Assembly: GCF_014836665.1 (NCBI RefSeq)
Contig: NZ_JACSQJ010000005.1
Span: forward strand, 8,950 to 72,949
Source: Luteimonas colneyensis
Lineage (GTDB): Bacteria > Pseudomonadota > Gammaproteobacteria > Xanthomonadales > Xanthomonadaceae
Reading direction: 5' to 3'
Length of the DNA: 64,000 bases
Shown: in pieces, positions 37,538 through 47,104 of the stretch
Layout of the letters: each line of letters starts with the position of its first letter
Position numbering within the stretch: the stretch's first letter is position 1
Position numbers and translations under genes: made by a program
The notes under the pieces: generated by a model
What the model was told of the DNA's origin: nothing
Database searches by the model: none
What the model saw: only the letters and a program-made list of their open reading frames with translations

Positions 37538-37906
37538 TTACTGCGCAGCGGCCTTCCTGGTGCGCTCGATGAACGCTTCCACCGGGGGACTCGACTCGTC
37601 AGCCGATTGGGCCTGGTCCATGCGGTTGCTCAGGTCTGCCTGGATCTGCTGGAACTCCGAGCGTGCGAACCGCATCAGCAGGTCGCGGATCATCGGCTGG
37701 TAAGCGATGCCGTGATGGCTCGCAATCGCTTTCAGCGCGTCGATCAACGGGATGGGCAGCCGGATCGAGACCAGCTTCATCGCCAGGTTGGTATCGAGCT
37801 GCAGAGACTCGTCCTCAGGCACCACCGCGACGTGCGCATCGCTACGCCCATACTCGCCGCTTTCCCACTTGGCGGTTACTTCTGCATCAAGGGCACGTGT
37901 CGTCAT
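37538..37906 (-). CDS. Antitoxin of a BrnTA/CopG-like pair
   Basis: The 122-residue protein starts MTTRALDAEVTAKWESGEYG. It contains a ribbon-helix-helix-like segment (KLVSIRLPIPLIDALKAIASHHGIAYQPMIRDLLMRFA), the fold of many CopG/BrnA antitoxins. ATG 37906 has a TGAGGA ribosome site that overlaps the upstream toxin stop; an earlier ATG at 37927 would overlap the toxin gene. The order toxin then antitoxin, 10 bases apart, is that of BrnT-BrnA systems. It should neutralise the toxin and repress the shared promoter. Confidence 0.82.
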   Translation of the reverse strand: MTTRALDAEVTAKWESGEYGRSDAHVAVVPEDESLQLDTNLAMKLVSIRLPIPLIDALKAIASHHGIAYQPMIRDLLMRFARSEFQQIQADLSNRMDQAQSADESSPPVEAFIERTRKAAAQ

Positions 37907-37916
37907 GGCGGGTTCC

Positions 37917-38210
37917 TCAGAAGTCATGGGGCTTTCCGTGCCGCCGGTAGATGGCCAGCTCGGCTTCATTGGGCTCGTAGCAGGTACGGATGAAGTAATC
38001 CCCGCGCGGGACATAACAGACCTTCAGAAGCCGACCCTTGTTGGTCGGCGCTATGAACCAGCGTGTCGGAGGATCAGTGGCATGTTCCTCCCGGGTGTCT
38101 ATCAGCAGATGACCGGTGCGATTGGCAAAGCACTGCTCAACCTCCGGCACTCCAACATCATGTTCGGCAGCCAGCTTGGCGCGAATCTGATCCGAGATCC
38201 GGATGGCCAT
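37917..38210 (-). CDS. BrnT-like toxin (DUF4258-type small protein)
   Basis: The 97-residue protein (MAIRISDQIRAKLAAEHDVG) matches small RelE-fold-like toxins that are often mislabelled ADP-ribosyl-dinitrogen reductase hydrolase. Conserved features are EVEQCFANRTG, DTREEHATDPPTRWFIAPTNKGRLLKVCYV and RTCYEPNEAELAIYRR. ATG 38210 has an AAGGA site 6 bases upstream, so the longer frame starting in the operator is rejected. It is the first gene of the pair with the CopG/BrnA-like protein. The presumed activity is mRNA cleavage; this is inferred from the related BrnT family, not shown by active-site residues here. Confidence 0.8.
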   Translation of the reverse strand: MAIRISDQIRAKLAAEHDVGVPEVEQCFANRTGHLLIDTREEHATDPPTRWFIAPTNKGRLLKVCYVPRGDYFIRTCYEPNEAELAIYRRHGKPHDF

Positions 38211-38239
38211 GCAGCATCCTTTGCCTTGGCGGCTGTCGA

Positions 38240-38267
38240 TTGTATATAAACCACGATGTATATACAA
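38240..38267 (-). promoter_or_regulatory. Palindromic operator of the toxin-antitoxin pair
   Basis: A perfect 9-base inverted repeat (TTGTATATA at 38240-38248, TATATACAA at 38259-38267, 10-base spacer) lies 30-57 bases upstream of the toxin start. It stands out as AT-rich in a GC-rich region. RHH antitoxins typically bind such repeats over the promoter, so this is a strong candidate for the autoregulatory site. Confidence 0.8.
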
Positions 38268-40311: not shown

Positions 40312-41235
40312 TCAGGCCGCCTCGCGATGTTCGTAATACGGCCGCTCCCGGTCATCGAGGATCGCGTACAGCGCGGCCAGGTTGCCGGGGTCCGGCGTCA
40401 GCCACGCCTCCAGGTGCTCCGCCTTGATCGGCACGATGCAGCGGTCATGCCCCGCCGCCGCCACCTCGGCCGGCGGCGCGTCGGTGATGGCGGCGAACGA
40501 GTACAGCTCCGAGCCGTCCGCCTCCGCGGTCCGCGTCCACAGGCAGGCCGCGATCATGTCGCGGCCGTCGCTGGGCCGGAACTCGAGGACCTGGTCGTGG
40601 CCGCCGCGGTCGACGTGTTCGTAGAAGGCGCTGGCCACCATCACCCCGTGGCCGTGGCCGAAGACCTTGCCCCAGGACTTCTCCAGGTTGTCGCGGCGGG
40701 CGTTGTAGGTGCCGGGGTATCGGCGCTCGATGGCCTCGGTCCAGTCGGGCAGCCGGCACTGGTAGCGCATCAGGCGCGCCACGTAGCGGCCGCGCTCGCG
40801 GATGACCACCGGGCACCAGTAACCGGGATAGATGCGGCCGGGACCGGCGTCGGCGGTCGGCGCGCGGAGTTCGTCCAGGCGACGCATCGCGGCCTCGACC
40901 TTGCCGGTGCCGATGCGAATGTCGTCACGGGCCTTCTTTGTCTCGCGCGCCTGCAGCGAGCGCTCTGCGTCGGCGACGCGCTTGCGCTGGGCGAAGACCA
41001 GCTGGGTGAGCTGGTCGATCTCGGCCTGGTCGGCAGCGGCGATGGCGGCGGCGATGCTGGCGGGGGCGAGCGCCATGGCTTCGCGCTCGACGACGCGGGG
41101 CATCCTGGGGCGCTTGCCGGGGTCCTTGCCCTTGCGGATCCAGAATTCCTCGACGTACCAGTCGGGGTCGATCTTGACGCCGAGCGTGCGTTCGAGTTTG
41201 CGGATTTCGGCGTGGACGAGGGCGGAGTAGCACAT
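40312..41235 (-). CDS. SRAP (SOS response-associated peptidase) family protein with a coiled-coil insertion
   Basis: SRAP proteins (YedK/HMCES) crosslink through Cys2 to abasic sites in single-stranded DNA. Here the start MCYSALV places the reactive Cys at position 2. Other site residues appear as TYNARRDNL, SAFYEH and the His of GHDRCIVPI. Unlike the usual 220-residue protein, this one has 307 residues. Residues 35-135 form an extra, highly charged helical insertion (LVFAQRKRVADAERSLQARETKKARDD) likely to be a coiled coil. The ATG at 41235 is fixed by the need for Cys2. No LexA-type box was recognised upstream. The family call is firm; the insert's role is unknown. Confidence 0.88.
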   Translation of the reverse strand: MCYSALVHAEIRKLERTLGVKIDPDWYVEEFWIRKGKDPGKRPRMPRVVEREAMALAPASIAAAIAAADQAEIDQLTQLVFAQRKRVADAERSLQARETKKARDDIRIGTGKVEAAMRRLDELRAPTADAGPGRIYPGYWCPVVIRERGRYVARLMRYQCRLPDWTEAIERRYPGTYNARRDNLEKSWGKVFGHGHGVMVASAFYEHVDRGGHDQVLEFRPSDGRDMIAACLWTRTAEADGSELYSFAAITDAPPAEVAAAGHDRCIVPIKAEHLEAWLTPDPGNLAALYAILDDRERPYYEHREAA

Positions 41236-41319
41236 GGCGGATTGCGATAGGCGATCGAGGTCACATTCGCCTCGATACTGCACCTGTGCGGGTGAACGCT
41301 AGCGCTTGGGTTTCCTCGA

Positions 41320-41565
41320 TCATGAGTCCACCCCCGCAAGCAGGCGCAGGCCGAGCACGGCGAGCATATCCAGCACCTTGTCCAGCTCGGCGCTGACCTT
41401 GCCACGCTCCAGCTCGCTAATGAAGCGGGGGCCGGTGCCGGGAAGACCGGCCAGATCGGGCTGAGCCAGGCCGTAGGCCTTGCGGGCCTGGCGCGCGGCA
41501 CCGCCCAGAGGGCCGGCATCGGCCAGCACCACAGATGAACCCGTACGGGACAATGGGTCCGTCAT
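41320..41565 (-). CDS. Orphan HipB-like HTH regulator
   Basis: The 81-residue protein carries a Cro/C1-type helix-turn-helix (ARQARKAYGLAQPDLAGLPGTGPRFISELERGK). This is followed by SAELDKVLDMLAVLGLRL, the pattern of HipB/y4mF antitoxins. The turn is unusual (AGLPGTGPRF in place of AGLAGVGLRF), so DNA binding may be weakened. In HipBA pairs the kinase gene hipA follows; here the downstream gene is the SRAP gene and no hipA is visible. It may be a relic or a solitary regulator. The ribosome site before ATG 41565 is poor, so the exact start is uncertain. Confidence 0.65.
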   Translation of the reverse strand: MTDPLSRTGSSVVLADAGPLGGAARQARKAYGLAQPDLAGLPGTGPRFISELERGKVSAELDKVLDMLAVLGLRLLAGVDS

Positions 41566-41678
41566 CAGACCGGGGCAGCCTTGCTGTTCCCGATCGGGAT
41601 AATCCAGCAAGCGGTGCGCTTGCCTCAAGGCAATCATCCCGATCGAAAATGCGGCCAGCACCCGGATCGTCTCGCGCG

Positions 41679-44600
41679 TCAGGAGGCCACGAGGGTATCC
41701 GAGTCCACCTCAACACCCGCATCTGGATCAAATGCACAGAACGTCATGGACCGCGCATGAAGGCTACGGAAAGCCGCGGCGGCGCCCAAAGGCTCGATAC
41801 CATGGCGCCGCAAGGTCGCCAACAGATCCTCCACGACATCAGCGCGGTGCAGGACGAAGTTGGAAGCGAAGCAACGCCAGAACGTCCACCCGGCCCGCTC
41901 AAGCACGCGCTGGCGACGGATGTCGTGTTCCCACTGGTCGGGGCCGTGATACCGGTCGCCGTCGCACTCGACCGCCAGGCGGGCGTCGTTCTCGCCTTCG
42001 ATCACCATGTCGATCCGATAGCTGCCGACCCGCACCTGCGGAATCACCCTGTAGCCACGCTGCACCAGCTCGTCGAACACTTCCCGCTCGAACGGGGATT
42101 CGCAGCGCGACCGCAGATCGACTGCCTCCTCCTCGTTCTGGGCGAAGGGAGCGCGGAAGTGCTCGATAAGCCGCCGTCGCAACACATCGTTCGGGCTTAG
42201 ATCCTCCAGGGCGACGCTGCGCACCAGATACATCCGGTCCCGCGCGCGTGACGCCGCGACGTTGTACCGCTGCGCGAACAAATGCTCGGACGCAACCGCG
42301 GGACGGTCCGAGACCACCATCGACAGGAACATGATGTCGCGCTCCTTGCCCTGGAACGTCCGCGCGTCGCCGAATGCCAGCTGGTGGCGCTCCACCACCG
42401 CCTCGCCGAGCTCGCTGTTCACCAGGTCCCAAACGAGCTTGGCCTGCTCGCTGCCCAGCAGCGAAACCACGCCGATCGTCTTGGTCGCCATCGCCGGGTC
42501 GGCCACGATCTGGCCGATCTCGCGCACGATGAACTGCGCTTCCGCCCGGTTCGTCTTGCCGGTTCCACGCGCTCCATCCAGCACGTGGACGTCGACCAGG
42601 GGAGGATCCAGCCGCTCGGATTGCCTGGGAACACGCAGCGGCCTCAGTTCATGGTCGTAGAACTCCCGTTTCGAGTACTCGATGATCGGCTCCACGCAGC
42701 GGAAATGCTCGCGCAGCATCACGGCGCCCTGGGCGAACACCACCTTGAACAGGTCGTAGATGGAACGGTCCGGCGACATCTGCGCCCGGTAGATGTCGAC
42801 CTGGTTCTGGAGATGCTGGGTCATCAGCGCGCCCACGCGTGCCGCATCGATCCCGACGCCGTCCGGCGAAACCTGCTTGTCGTCGCCGACGATCAACACC
42901 TTCTTTGCACGCAGGATCGCCGGGAGGGCGGTCAGGTCCGACTGCGACGCCTCGTCGATGATGACCAGATCGAAGCCGCCCAGCTCCACCGGAAGGGATT
43001 CGCAGATCCTGTAGTGCGGCATGATCCAGCAGGGCACGGCTGGACTGGCCTTGTCGGCAGCCTCGCGAGCGTCTTTTCTGAAACGCGGGGCGCGGATGCC
43101 GGTCCCCTTGCCGATCCTCTTGATGGCCGTGCGATACGCTTCCAGCGCAGAACGCACCGCGGGACTGGCCTTCCGGGCCATCTCCAGCCACGTGCGGCGC
43201 GCCACCGCCTCCTCGTACAGCCTGGCGAGCGCTGATTCGAAATCCGCGCGCTCCCGGCTCAGCCGCTCGAGCTCCTGCCGCCCGTCCATGTCCTGCACCG
43301 CGCTCAACAGGCGGCGCAGCCTCCAGCACTGCCGCCAGTTGTCGGGCAGGAGCGGGTCATGCTGCGGATGCGGAGGATCGTGCCTCAGCTGCTCCGCCCA
43401 CCGCACGGCACCGCTGGCCGCGATCAGCTGCGTCGTCGCGGACACCGTCCCCACGGCGGGCAGCAGCCTATGGCAGCGTCGCAGCTCCTCCAGGATCGCG
43501 AGCCATTCCGACCTGAGCGTGCTCTCGTCCACGCTCCCAGCACCGACGCGTTCCTCGAGGAACTGCCTGATCCGCCCCACCAGTCGACCGTGCGCGCCAT
43601 CGAGCGCACCCAGGAATGCGTCTTTGACCTGCCAGATGCTGGCCAGGCGATTCCGCGTCAGGTTGTGCTCGAGGACCTGGCGGACACCGGCGATCCCGTC
43701 CTGGTCGAGCGGTACCCGCGGCCGGTCTGCCCACGCCGGGAAAAGGTCGACAAGCAGCCCGAGCAGCTCGGCTTCGCCGTGCACGACGCGGAGCATCTTC
43801 CGCCACCCCTTGATGACGTCTTCCGCACGCGTGGGGAACGCGTGGACCGTTGCGATCGCCGGAATCCCCAGGTCCGGCACCAGCGCGTTCCACCGTGCCA
43901 GCAGACGCGTCAGGTCCTGCAGCAGGGCCACGTGGCGCGCCACGTGCGCCCAGTCCGAGGGGGTTGCCGGCGCCATGCCCTCCAGGCGGATGCTGCCGAG
44001 CCGCTGTTTCCCGGCCGACTTGCCGAACAGCCCGGCGACACCGAAGGGACGCTGCCCCTTGGCAAGATTCCCGATGCCGGCGACGACCTCGGCATCGGCC
44101 AGGGCCTCGTCCGGGATCTCCACCGGTCTGGCGAGAAGCCGCGCCCTCTCTTCCAGCGCAATGACGACCTCACCGCCCAGTGCATCGAAGACCGGCAGGA
44201 GCCCTTCCGTCATGCCGACCTGTCGGACGCGCGCTTCCAGGCGGGACAGCCAGTCATCCCCTACAGCGTCGACCGCGGCGCGCTCCACAAGCAGCGCTTC
44301 GGCCTTCGCGGCAGCCACGAGCGCCGCCTCGATCGTCTGCTGCTCGGCATCACGCAGCGCTGGCACCTCCTCCGACGCCACCTGCGCGTTCAACTCGGCC
44401 AGGCGGCACAGATCAGCGTGCGCCTGGATCAGCCTGTCCGTGGACGGGAAGGCCTCGACCTTCGGAAGCGATTCCCGCACCAGCGCCATGTCATCGGCCA
44501 GCCGCCTGCGGGCGTCCCTCAGGGCCACGATGTCCTCATCGTCGAACCCGGGCCGGTGCATGTCCTGGGGGGTGAGCGGATCAGGAATCAGCGTGGCAGC

Positions 44601-46550
44601 CGCCATGTCCGTCGCGACCTCGCGGGCAAGGTCCACGGGACGGATCTCCTCGCCGTCCATCACCACGGGCTCCAGGTTCTTGCGCGCCCATTTCGCAATG
44701 GCCCCATCCACGGCCGCAATCCTGGCGTGGGTCTGGTCGACCTCCGCGTCCAGGCGCTGGACCGCCTTCATCTCTGCCGGACGGTTGATCCTCGCCACCT
44801 CGGCGGAGATCCTTGCGATCGCGTGCTCGAACTGCTTCATCCCGTCGGCTTCGCTGCTCAGGAGGCTGATTGCGAGGGCACGGATATCGTCCGGAAGCTT
44901 GTCCCGCAGCACCGCGAGCGCCGGGTCCTTCATCGACGTCACCAGCACCCGCTTTCCGTTGGCGAGGTAGTGGCAGATGACGTTGGCGATCGTATGGGTC
45001 TTGCCAGTGCCCGGAGGCCCCTGCACCACCACGCCATCGTAGGCGTCGAGCATCTGGACGATCTGGACCTGCTCGTCGTTGTACGGCATCGGAAAGTAGA
45101 GATCCCGCGCCCGCTCCGACTTCCCGGCGTTCCAGTCGATATTGGAAAGGCCACGATAGGCCTGGAGGGGCAGGTCCGAGACCTCGGTTCCAGGATCCGA
45201 CACGATGGAAGCGATCGCCGGCGGCAGCAGGTGCACGTCCTGCTGCAGCAGGGTCTCGAACCGCTCCAGGTCATGCACGAAGAGGCTTCTGCTTCGCGGC
45301 CGCGCGAACAGCGCCCAGGTGTTCGTCACCACGAGCTGATCCGTGGGCGGCGGGAGCTTCGCGCCGGAACCGGCCAAGTCCAATTGGACGAACGTACCCC
45401 GTCCGTCCAGCAGTCCGCTCGCGGTCTTGAGAACCGGCTCGAACGTGCTGGCCTCGAACGGATTGACGCTGGCCTCCAGCGAGGCGAGGAACTCCTTGCC
45501 GCTCCGGGCTACATCGGCCACCCGCGGCAACTCCATCACCCGGTAGAGATCGAGCTCCACCCGGGCCTCGAGCAGGCGAGGCCGAACACTGATCGCGTGG
45601 TCGTCCCCATCCACCGAAAGCTCGGCCAGCTTGGTGATCAGCGGATAGCGAATGGGCCCGCCAGGGCAGTCCCAGACCGCCACGCCGATGCCCATCACCA
45701 GCTCCAGCTCGGATTCGACAATGTTGCCTTGCAGCTTCTGGTGCAACGCGAACAGGTCCGCGTACAGAGCAATGCTCCGGCGCCGGGTCTTCTCCTCCGC
45801 CGCCCACGGCTGCCAGGTGCCGCGGAGATAGGCCGCCAACTGGATGTCCGCCTCTTCCCTGATTCCAAGCGCGTCCAGCGTGAAGAAGTCGGTTGGCGCG
45901 TCTTGTCCCGGCTCCGGCAGTGTCAGGCCCAGCTCGACAGCGCGTTCCTTCGACAGGCGCTTCTGCAGTACCGGAACTGCTGCCGGATTGGTCGACTGCG
46001 CGATGACTGCCCGCAACAACCGGTCGCTTGGCGGTGGGGGTTCGGTCTCCCGGAGGCGCTCGACGCGGATCCACACCTCGTCGTGGTCGCCGTCTCGCGC
46101 AGGAAAGCTGATGCCCGGGAGACCCGACAGTTCGCCCGCATAGCGCCGGAAATCGTCGTGCTGCTCGATGGTGCGTGGAGGCTGTCCACGCAGCAAAGCC
46201 GTCTGCTTGACGAAGTCCAGCAGCTCGCGCAACCGCGTCACGATCATGGGGTCCCCCTGTTCAGCCGACGCTTCCGCCGGTTCGATCACGTCTTCCATTC
46301 CGGTCGCCGGTATCCCCGGGGCCGGCTCCAATGCTGCATCCGGCGGGGTGTTTGCCACGAGGGTGCCGCCCTTGGCCCGCTTCTGCAGGCGCTCGACCTT
46401 GCGTGCGAGCGTCTGGGCTCTCGGCACCCGCCGGTACCGCAGTTCGGCGGCAATCTGGTCGAGGGACCACGGATGGGTCCCTTCGTCGACGTTCCGCACC
46501 ATGTCTTCAAGCTGTTCGATGCGCTTGTTGAGAAGCGGGCGCCTGGTCAT
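41679..46550 (-). CDS. Giant SF1 helicase with C-terminal PD-(D/E)XK nuclease
   Basis: The 1,623-residue protein has an N-terminal region of unknown fold (1-500) and a Walker A GPPGTGKT at about residue 510. A 650-residue helical insertion lies between motifs I and II. The Walker B block is VIIDEAS near 1195, followed by GDDKQVSP (about 1222), and the motif VI-type NVAASRARDR is near 1425. This is the Upf1/Dna2-like SF1 arrangement. Residues 1475-1570 are a DUF559/Vsr-like nuclease: CESPFEREV, YRIDMVIEG with the metal Asp, and the ECDGDRYH core. Similar helicase-nuclease fusions act alone as phage defence genes. It stands between a VanZ gene and an orphan HipB gene. The substrate and immune role are inferred. 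Confidence 0.85.
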   Translation of the reverse strand: MTRRPLLNKRIEQLEDMVRNVDEGTHPWSLDQIAAELRYRRVPRAQTLARKVERLQKRAKGGTLVANTPPDAALEPAPGIPATGMEDVIEPAEASAEQGDPMIVTRLRELLDFVKQTALLRGQPPRTIEQHDDFRRYAGELSGLPGISFPARDGDHDEVWIRVERLRETEPPPPSDRLLRAVIAQSTNPAAVPVLQKRLSKERAVELGLTLPEPGQDAPTDFFTLDALGIREEADIQLAAYLRGTWQPWAAEEKTRRRSIALYADLFALHQKLQGNIVESELELVMGIGVAVWDCPGGPIRYPLITKLAELSVDGDDHAISVRPRLLEARVELDLYRVMELPRVADVARSGKEFLASLEASVNPFEASTFEPVLKTASGLLDGRGTFVQLDLAGSGAKLPPPTDQLVVTNTWALFARPRSRSLFVHDLERFETLLQQDVHLLPPAIASIVSDPGTEVSDLPLQAYRGLSNIDWNAGKSERARDLYFPMPYNDEQVQIVQMLDAYDGVVVQGPPGTGKTHTIANVICHYLANGKRVLVTSMKDPALAVLRDKLPDDIRALAISLLSSEADGMKQFEHAIARISAEVARINRPAEMKAVQRLDAEVDQTHARIAAVDGAIAKWARKNLEPVVMDGEEIRPVDLAREVATDMAAATLIPDPLTPQDMHRPGFDDEDIVALRDARRRLADDMALVRESLPKVEAFPSTDRLIQAHADLCRLAELNAQVASEEVPALRDAEQQTIEAALVAAAKAEALLVERAAVDAVGDDWLSRLEARVRQVGMTEGLLPVFDALGGEVVIALEERARLLARPVEIPDEALADAEVVAGIGNLAKGQRPFGVAGLFGKSAGKQRLGSIRLEGMAPATPSDWAHVARHVALLQDLTRLLARWNALVPDLGIPAIATVHAFPTRAEDVIKGWRKMLRVVHGEAELLGLLVDLFPAWADRPRVPLDQDGIAGVRQVLEHNLTRNRLASIWQVKDAFLGALDGAHGRLVGRIRQFLEERVGAGSVDESTLRSEWLAILEELRRCHRLLPAVGTVSATTQLIAASGAVRWAEQLRHDPPHPQHDPLLPDNWRQCWRLRRLLSAVQDMDGRQELERLSRERADFESALARLYEEAVARRTWLEMARKASPAVRSALEAYRTAIKRIGKGTGIRAPRFRKDAREAADKASPAVPCWIMPHYRICESLPVELGGFDLVIIDEASQSDLTALPAILRAKKVLIVGDDKQVSPDGVGIDAARVGALMTQHLQNQVDIYRAQMSPDRSIYDLFKVVFAQGAVMLREHFRCVEPIIEYSKREFYDHELRPLRVPRQSERLDPPLVDVHVLDGARGTGKTNRAEAQFIVREIGQIVADPAMATKTIGVVSLLGSEQAKLVWDLVNSELGEAVVERHQLAFGDARTFQGKERDIMFLSMVVSDRPAVASEHLFAQRYNVAASRARDRMYLVRSVALEDLSPNDVLRRRLIEHFRAPFAQNEEEAVDLRSRCESPFEREVFDELVQRGYRVIPQVRVGSYRIDMVIEGENDARLAVECDGDRYHGPDQWEHDIRRQRVLERAGWTFWRCFASNFVLHRADVVEDLLATLRRHGIEPLGAAAAFRSLHARSMTFCAFDPDAGVEVDSDTLVAS

Positions 46551-46618: not shown

Positions 46619-47104
46619 TTACCCGCCCTTCCCCTCACTCGCGCGGCGCGCCCTCGCCGCAACCACGCAGCACACCGACCCGAGCAAGACGCCCACCAGC
46701 CCGCCCAGCACATTCAGCGCCGCGTCCTCGACCTTGGGCTGGCGCCCGTCGGTCAGCCATTGCGACAGCTCCGCGGCGACGCCGAGCGCGGCGACCAGCG
46801 CCACCCCGCGCCAGTTGCGGATGTCCCGGCGGGCCAGCCACAGCAGGAACCCGAGCCAGCCGAAAACGATCAGATGGACCCACTCCGGCGGATCGAGCGG
46901 CGTCGCGCGCGTGAGGTCGTACCACCCGTGGACGCGCTCCATGCCGACCAGGCCCGCGAGCATGGCCGTCGGCAGGAACAGCACCGCGGAGACCGCCAGC
47001 GCGGATGCCACCAGCAGGGCCGCGACCAGCGGGTGGCTGCCACGTCCCAGGAGGATCGCGACGCCGAGCGCCAGCACGGCCAGCAGCAGGTCGGCCCCGG
47101 TCAT
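46619..47104 (-). CDS. VanZ family membrane protein
   Basis: The 161-residue protein has four membrane helices with the VanZ-like pattern: ADLLLAVLALGVAILL, ALAVSAVLFLPTAM, VHLIVFGWLGFLLWLA and a last ALNVLGGLVGVLLGSVCCVV. The motif AAELSQWLTDGRQPKVEDAALN is the signature of the family (VanZ/RDD type). Such proteins sit in envelope polysaccharide loci but have no defined activity. Its start overlaps the stop of the upstream glycosyltransferase gene (ATGA). It is the last gene of the polysaccharide operon before the helicase-nuclease gene. Confidence 0.85.
   Translation of the reverse strand: MTGADLLLAVLALGVAILLGRGSHPLVAALLVASALAVSAVLFLPTAMLAGLVGMERVHGWYDLTRATPLDPPEWVHLIVFGWLGFLLWLARRDIRNWRGVALVAALGVAAELSQWLTDGRQPKVEDAALNVLGGLVGVLLGSVCCVVAARARRASEGKGG

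Follow-up and report, generated by a model that had tools for sequence, protein, structure and literature searches.

A stand-alone SF1 helicase-nuclease of Luteimonas colneyensis as a candidate anti-phage gene in a variable locus

Described systems and the helicase-nuclease gene

The defence family Hhe reportedly has a DUF4011-helicase-Vsr architecture, and Mokosh systems use a PLD nuclease. An SF1 helicase combined with an MTES_1575 nuclease and further domains, without modification genes, was predicted to be a defence device in 2013, and that paper (PMC3710099) includes giant HEPN-transglutaminase-SF1 helicase-Vsr-wHTH proteins. The BREX-related helicase-nucleases of PMC12839542 have SF2 motors and are of a different kind. 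Within the open-licence literature, no paper was found under REase_MTES_1575, PDC-S37, or DUF3320 together with Hhe, and no relevant-looking paper under ProA together with helicase.

We analysed a 64,000-nucleotide stretch of the Luteimonas colneyensis genome (the window), for which the original prediction had proposed a stand-alone helicase-nuclease gene as a candidate anti-phage gene. The single reading frame claimed there was open from its ATG for all 1,623 codons (Table 1). Coding was supported by a third-codon-position GC content of 0.82-0.87 per segment over residues 101-1590, and homologues could be aligned along the frame. The SF1 helicase said to have intact motifs I, II, and VI was recognized by Pfam as AAA_11 (residues 490-606, 61.6 bits; cut-off 27) and AAA_12 (1267-1443, 48 bits; cut-off 27). 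The C-terminal DUF559/Vsr-like nuclease with its metal-site segments was found as an MTES_1575 restriction endonuclease domain covering positions 1-96 of the 96-position profile (E = 8.6e-33; 112.7 bits, above the gathering cut-off of 38.2), with DUF559 as a weaker match (1493-1580, E = 5.4e-6). In a six-protein alignment, motifs I and II, most of motif VI, and the three acidic residues of the nuclease were invariant or nearly so, and the key columns of the motifs and the nuclease stayed invariant in a 24-protein alignment. The core of a structure model of residues 476-1600 (pLDDT 85.3) matched SETX, UPF1, IGHMBP2, and Dna2 in a Foldseek search (82 chains at E ≤ 0.001). The motor is an SF1 helicase of the UPF1/SETX/IGHMBP2/Dna2 kind, with intact motifs.

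Table 1 Coordinates of the features discussed, in window positions
Feature	Position	Strand	Basis
SF1 helicase/MTES_1575 (Vsr-like) nuclease gene, 1,623 aa	41679..46550	(-)	Open frame from ATG; Pfam
Three-helix N-terminal module, residues 1-60	46371..46550	(-)	Leave-one-out HMM; model
N-terminal region, residues 101-480	45111..46250	(-)	Model, pLDDT 80.4
Helicase motif I, GPPGTGKT (511-518)	44997..45020	(-)	Invariant in 6-protein alignment; AAA_11
Helical insertion between motifs I and II, residues 571-1100 (~530 residues)	43251..44840	(-)	Structure model; low conservation
Helicase motif II, VIIDEAS (1196-1202)	42945..42965	(-)	DEAS (1199-1202) invariant in 6-protein alignment
Helicase motif VI, NVAASRARDR (1430-1439)	42234..42263	(-)	Mostly invariant in 6-protein alignment
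MTES_1575/Vsr-like nuclease, residues 1487-1580, with E1488, D1514, E1528	41811..42092	(-)	PF18741; invariant residues
HipB-type HTH gene, likely start 41565	41320..41661	(-)	TIGR03070 66.8 bits, cut-off 71.65
Presumed VanZ-like gene, neighbour of the insert	46619..47104	(-)	75% identical at same place in G044
SRAP gene, anchor of the site comparison	40312..41283	(-)	PF02586; 93% identical in G044

Some 680 residues separate motif I from motif II. The helical insertion proposed between them was confirmed at a length of about 530 residues (650 in the original prediction), being almost wholly helical in the model with one short strand pair. Its identity to the protein of the related genome G060 was 27%, compared with 58-61% for the nuclease and the parts that hold the motifs; its length was retained across the family despite this poor conservation.

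The N-terminal 500 residues, described earlier as lacking a nameable domain, were found not to form one block. In a model of residues 1-490 (pLDDT 80.4), a separate three-helix unit (1-59) is followed by a low-confidence linker (63-97), and beyond this lie a long helix at 231-274, two stretches of beta strands at 282-324 and 386-418, and a returning helix at 421-437. Because the order of these elements in the model fits, residues 231-437 may represent stalk helices and a beta-barrel resembling domain 1B of UPF1-type helicases. A fold search with the N-terminal model gave no match at E ≤ 0.001, and the best VIA-align hit (Z 5.0 over 60 residues) was too weak to use; such an absence of matches is no proof of a new fold. 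An AGGGGG stretch was noticed at 46245-46258, shortly before an internal ATG (codon 102) and near the starts of the relatives. A shorter product without the N-terminal module, starting from this ATG, is possible.

Distribution, insertion site, and mobility

No full-length match to the helicase-nuclease gene was found in the 51 other genomes of the genus, some of which are incomplete drafts. Full-length matches were present in two of 101 relatives, the genome itself included, and in six of 398 genomes of the order; outside these six, G230 matched at both ends within a 1,628-codon frame. Partial matches occurred in six genomes of the genus (G010, G011, G012, G024, G032, and G041), and those in G011, G024, and G032 were ProA-like genes.

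The locus had been predicted to be variable, and the comparison with relatives bore this out. In the window, the gene order is VanZ-like, helicase, HipB, and SRAP. In G044, a phosphomannomutase-like gene (by eye) stands between the VanZ-like and SRAP genes; the same kind of gene (by eye) follows the VanZ-like gene in G051, and yet another gene occupies the helicase position in G003. Conservation at the same place was thus not seen in G044 and G003. The best match to the G044 phosphomannomutase-like gene in the genome of the window was only 36% identical, so that no close copy is present. The helicase gene was also absent from ten stretches sharing a 65-84% identical glycosyltransferase neighbour (L052, L081-L087, L091, and L092), of which L052 breaks off shortly past the VanZ-like gene and several more are no longer syntenic over the full stretch, and likewise from L088. 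A search for repeats of 9-16 nt, direct or inverted, that would link the two insert junctions found none, and neither a recombinase nor a known defence system was found in the window neighbourhood as far as it was scanned. Because no full-length match occurs in the 51 other genomes of the genus and other genes occupy the site, the helicase-nuclease gene is, as judged from these genome comparisons, accessory. Further along the window (37538-38267), a BrnA-like antitoxin gene (CopG, 28.5 bits; cut-off 28) lies with a weak overlapping BrnT-like frame; BrnA is kept in the G044 relative, where the BrnT match comprises the first 24 residues only.

The gene had been placed between polysaccharide genes and a HipB gene, and this position was correct, with polysaccharide genes on one side and the HipB-type gene, whose TIGR03070 score falls just under the cut-off, downstream. 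The HipB locus of G033, which has no helicase gene, becomes similar in DNA sequence to the window at 41645, 34 nt beyond the stop codon of the helicase. The G033 HipB gene (74% identical in the core) is an orphan on a 3.3-kb contig, where its neighbour is another VanZ-like gene, and those of G034 and G005 (67-70% identical) are followed by HipA-sized genes (417 and 427 aa; HipA by reading). The helicase gene is absent from all three HipB stretches, and therefore a joint system is not supported and HipB was rejected as a partner of the helicase-nuclease; the neighbouring HipB appears to belong to the locus, not to the system. From the site order in G044, G051, and G003 together with these helicase-free HipB loci, we take the helicase gene to be the insert and HipB to be resident at the site. 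The region upstream of HipB (41566-41645) contains CCCGATCGGGA-type palindromes, partly kept in G033, which are probably HipB's own operators.

Relatives were grouped as I, II, and III by summed bits, with L131, labelled I, falling among group II in the tree. Among 16 group I members, counting the window but not L131, three have a small ribbon-helix-helix-like ORF (by eye) that overlaps the helicase gene or ends within its first bases. The remaining 13 lack it, although for two of them the available upstream sequence is short, and the ORF was rejected as a fixed partner; P0003 and the small ORF of G060 had no Pfam match.

Relatives occur on mobile elements. A plasmid search matched 450 records, 22 of them at a cover of at least 80% of the protein. 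Six phage records matched, none with a full-length copy, and predicted viral contigs gave 11 loci, eight with long matches (two near-duplicates) at up to 48% identity. In G060, the copy (42%) is flanked on one side by a large serine recombinase gene (by eye) at a distance of about 1 kb and on the other by a tmRNA gene at 545 nt; a tmRNA site marks a defence hotspot in P. aeruginosa (PMC10250203). The recombinase context is repeated in the predicted viral contig L233, which has HsdM-like genes (by eye). A DUF2924-like gene and a serine recombinase (both by eye), one or more small ORFs, and the helicase-nuclease are shared by L089 (8069-16698) and L233 (1196-11424); the helicase gene of L089 runs on the opposite strand, with a tmRNA gene beyond. 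The window protein falls into a mobile branch of enzymes suspected of anti-phage action, to which the reference models give only weak matches.

Classical defence systems were located within 10 kb in four of 14 distinct group I contexts, some of which have short flanks; these four loci were chosen for checking from annotation or reading. PADLOC identified BREX pglX and brxL beside the Acinetobacter relative (brxL 63 bp upstream), Wadjet jetA, jetC, and jetD upstream of the Chromobacterium relative, Wadjet jetB and jetC within 10 kb of the Variovorax relative, and a type III methylase as neighbour of the Sphingobium relative. In the other ten contexts, 111 neighbour ORFs gave scattered hits to 26 PADLOC families, almost every one of them represented by a single member (raw counts), and the 25 families listed included AbiEii, RT-type, DrmD (two members), mad2, mad3, and candidate PDC models. 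The nearest relative (L112, 51%) lies within a run of ordinary-looking genes (by eye). In their available parts, two papers on Acinetobacter BREX (PMC9122589 and PMC10117892) make no mention of the helicase-nuclease gene. Near another family member (L202 3691-7967, in G405), frames resembling an OLD-like ATPase and a UvrD-like helicase (by eye) stand in a Gabija-like order.

A portable N-terminal module

Residues 1-95 of the window protein have little or no counterpart in the other group I proteins. Weak matches in G165 and G037 led to a motif common to five other sequences, about RPx5IxQLE...L..EL..R...RA..L, which characterizes the N-terminal three-helix module (helices 4-22, 30-38, and 43-59 in the model). 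An HMM built without the window sequence retrieved the window N-terminus at E = 4.7e-11 among 34,641 frames, another built without the Variovorax ORF recovered that ORF at 6.3e-14, and the Mesorhizobium ORF had matched at 7.9e-11 before its use as a seed. The module had no Pfam match, and plasmids were matched only when a relative's sequence was used, with no match from the window's own. A search with residues 1-90 reached ten genomes at E 0.01; of five loci re-examined besides G165, only G037 seemed a genuine carrier. The module is rare, with ten carriers among the 398 genomes of the order, the window's own included and G060 discounted. The G060 candidate (C5, E = 8.7e-4) was rejected since the frame around it appears to encode a different protein.

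The carriers are of several types, among them two SF1 helicase types other than that of the window. Helicases of about 1,150 residues form one type, with 1,153-1,210 codons in G318, G379, G312, G333, G432, and a Xanthomonas plasmid; 925 codons in G165, 1,194 in G037, and a 211-codon fragment in G400 are further examples. AAA_11/12 domains were identified by profile in the Xanthomonas protein only, and the rest were assigned by size and visible likeness. UvrD-type helicases carry the module in G346 and, by annotation, in two Rhizobium plasmids, and short ORFs do so in Mesorhizobium and G431. On the Xanthomonas hortorum plasmid (L216 7001-12910), the module-bearing AAA_11/12 helicase is accompanied by an Mrr-type nuclease and an NYN-OST-HTH protein. 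The same three-gene cassette, judged by frame sizes only, occurs in G318 (L229 8006-13975), where the module-bearing helicase lies 1.1 kb from a divergently oriented relative that, with 1,888 codons, is the size of ProA.

On the Variovorax paradoxus VAI-C plasmid (CP063168.1; L098 14474-15043), an unannotated ORF of 189 aa begins 4 nt after the stop of the helicase-nuclease gene. It is made up of the module, followed by a linker and a DnaJ-like end for which the PF00226 score of 20.7 bits falls below the cut-off of 27.8. The fusion in the window and this separate ORF thus show the same helicase-nuclease type with the module either fused or encoded as the next gene. On a Mesorhizobium huakuii plasmid (L217 6947-10289), an IS1634-family transposase gene lies between the module ORF and a UvrD-helicase-domain gene, and these two could be the halves of a single gene that the element has interrupted.

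Because relatives lack the module or encode it next door, it could serve as an exchangeable adaptor or targeting piece. We tentatively propose, while holding the idea doubtful, that it is a portable adaptor common to helicase-based conflict systems, recruiting a common partner or recognizing a common signal of the invader. If so, several unrelated defence helicases would read one cue via a shared module. The module, common to several helicases, gives a starting point for asking how helicase-nuclease defence proteins might recognize invaders without a methylation mark.

Function and relation to known defence families

Patchy distribution, other genes at the same site, mobile carriage, and the defence neighbours of some relatives make the gene a defence candidate, and its proposal as a stand-alone anti-phage gene is supported to that extent. 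We consider it probable that the gene encodes a single-gene mobile effector with a defence role against invading DNA, a reading with which the abortive and anti-plasmid alternatives overlap, so that their likelihoods are not to be added. Direct interference by cutting the invading DNA is the reading we favour. The protein would load on an abnormal nucleic-acid end or a single-stranded gap of incoming DNA, and its SF1 motor would track along entering or damaged DNA, presumably from 5' to 3', the direction in which UPF1/Dna2-type helicases move. The helical insertion could be a clamp or sensor restraining the nuclease, and the Vsr-like nuclease would cut the tracked DNA with no need for a partner methylase.

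It is possible, though we lean against it, that the system acts by abortive infection, in which phage attack would release the nuclease on all cell DNA, that of the host included. A single-gene helicase-nuclease with no methylase to protect self would fit such a mode, and so would the ribbon-helix-helix-like ORF, placed at the helicase start as a regulator might be. However, that ORF is missing from most group I members and has no Pfam match in the two cases above, and the HipB of the window is not tied to the helicase gene.

That the gene shields the cell or a mobile element from rival plasmids and integrative elements, and not from phages, seems unlikely. Relatives are carried on plasmids and recombinase islands, and Wadjet, an anti-plasmid system, is among their neighbours; however, the neighbouring BREX and type III restriction-modification systems are anti-phage kinds, and ProA and Hhe, the curated relatives, bear anti-phage names. 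Very unlikely is a Dna2- or SETX-like helicase for DNA repair or R-loop/RNA surveillance, since the resemblance of the core to SETX, UPF1, IGHMBP2, and Dna2 and the nearby SRAP gene of a damage-response family are set against the lack of a full-length match in nearly all relatives searched and the occurrence of the SRAP gene at this site in G044 and G003, where the helicase is missing.

Both top NCBIfam matches of the protein are anti-phage families, which supports a defence role. The best, ProA (NF058533, 'anti-phage protein ProA'), matched residues 479-1582 with 222.6 bits against an equivalog cut-off of 1500, and Hhe (NF042953; PADLOC PDLC02194) scored 142.5 bits against a cut-off of 2000. 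ProA shares the SF1 helicase and C-terminal MTES_1575 nuclease. However, the ProA member L093 scored 1866 bits with DUF4011, which Pfam detected there at 142 bits as a positive control, whereas the window protein belongs to another clade and had no DUF4011 match at E ≤ 1, a search in which filters drop most matches above 0.1. L093 is one of five ProA-like genes (L093-L097, in G067, G011, G024, G062, and G032), which come from three genomes of the genus and two of the order and scored 1465-1866 bits, three of them above the cut-off. The Hhe-like architecture originally proposed holds as a general resemblance, a helicase followed by a Vsr-like nuclease, but does not amount to membership given the score and the missing DUF4011.

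The best PADLOC match of the window protein was the candidate PDC-S37 (PDLC05009) at 212 bits. Its best stretch covers positions 732-1339 of the 1550-position profile, whereas L159, on the ProA side of the tree, scored 1357. Mokosh MkoA/MkoC shares the SF1 motor (108 bits), with a best stretch confined to motor residues, and Pfam found no PLD-type nuclease domain in the window protein, in which the nuclease is PF18741. On scores and domains together, Hhe, ProA, PDC-S37, and Mokosh were rejected as assignments. The motor and the MTES_1575 nuclease are also those of the giant proteins in PMC3710099; however, the HEPN, transglutaminase, and wHTH/DUF3320 domains of the latter had no Pfam match in the window protein. 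DUF3320 is present in the Sphingobium relative.

In a tree of the core (84 rows, 473 columns), built by a quick method and rooted at the midpoint, with long branches elsewhere among its rows, the window protein fell into a 49-row group with SH-aLRT support of 100, and the five ProA-like rows into a separate 17-row group (100). The members of the 49-row group come from Pseudomonadota, Bacillota, Actinomycetota, Planctomycetota, and Acidobacteriota. At E ≤ 1e-10, each of the 24 members of the branch alignment was matched by the models for ProA, Hhe, PDC-S37, and Mokosh, and therefore these models see the superfamily, not the branch. The branch thus spans five phyla, yet the curated models tried catch its sampled members only via the wider superfamily, and defining it as a family of its own beside ProA and Hhe would provide a testable single-gene candidate system.
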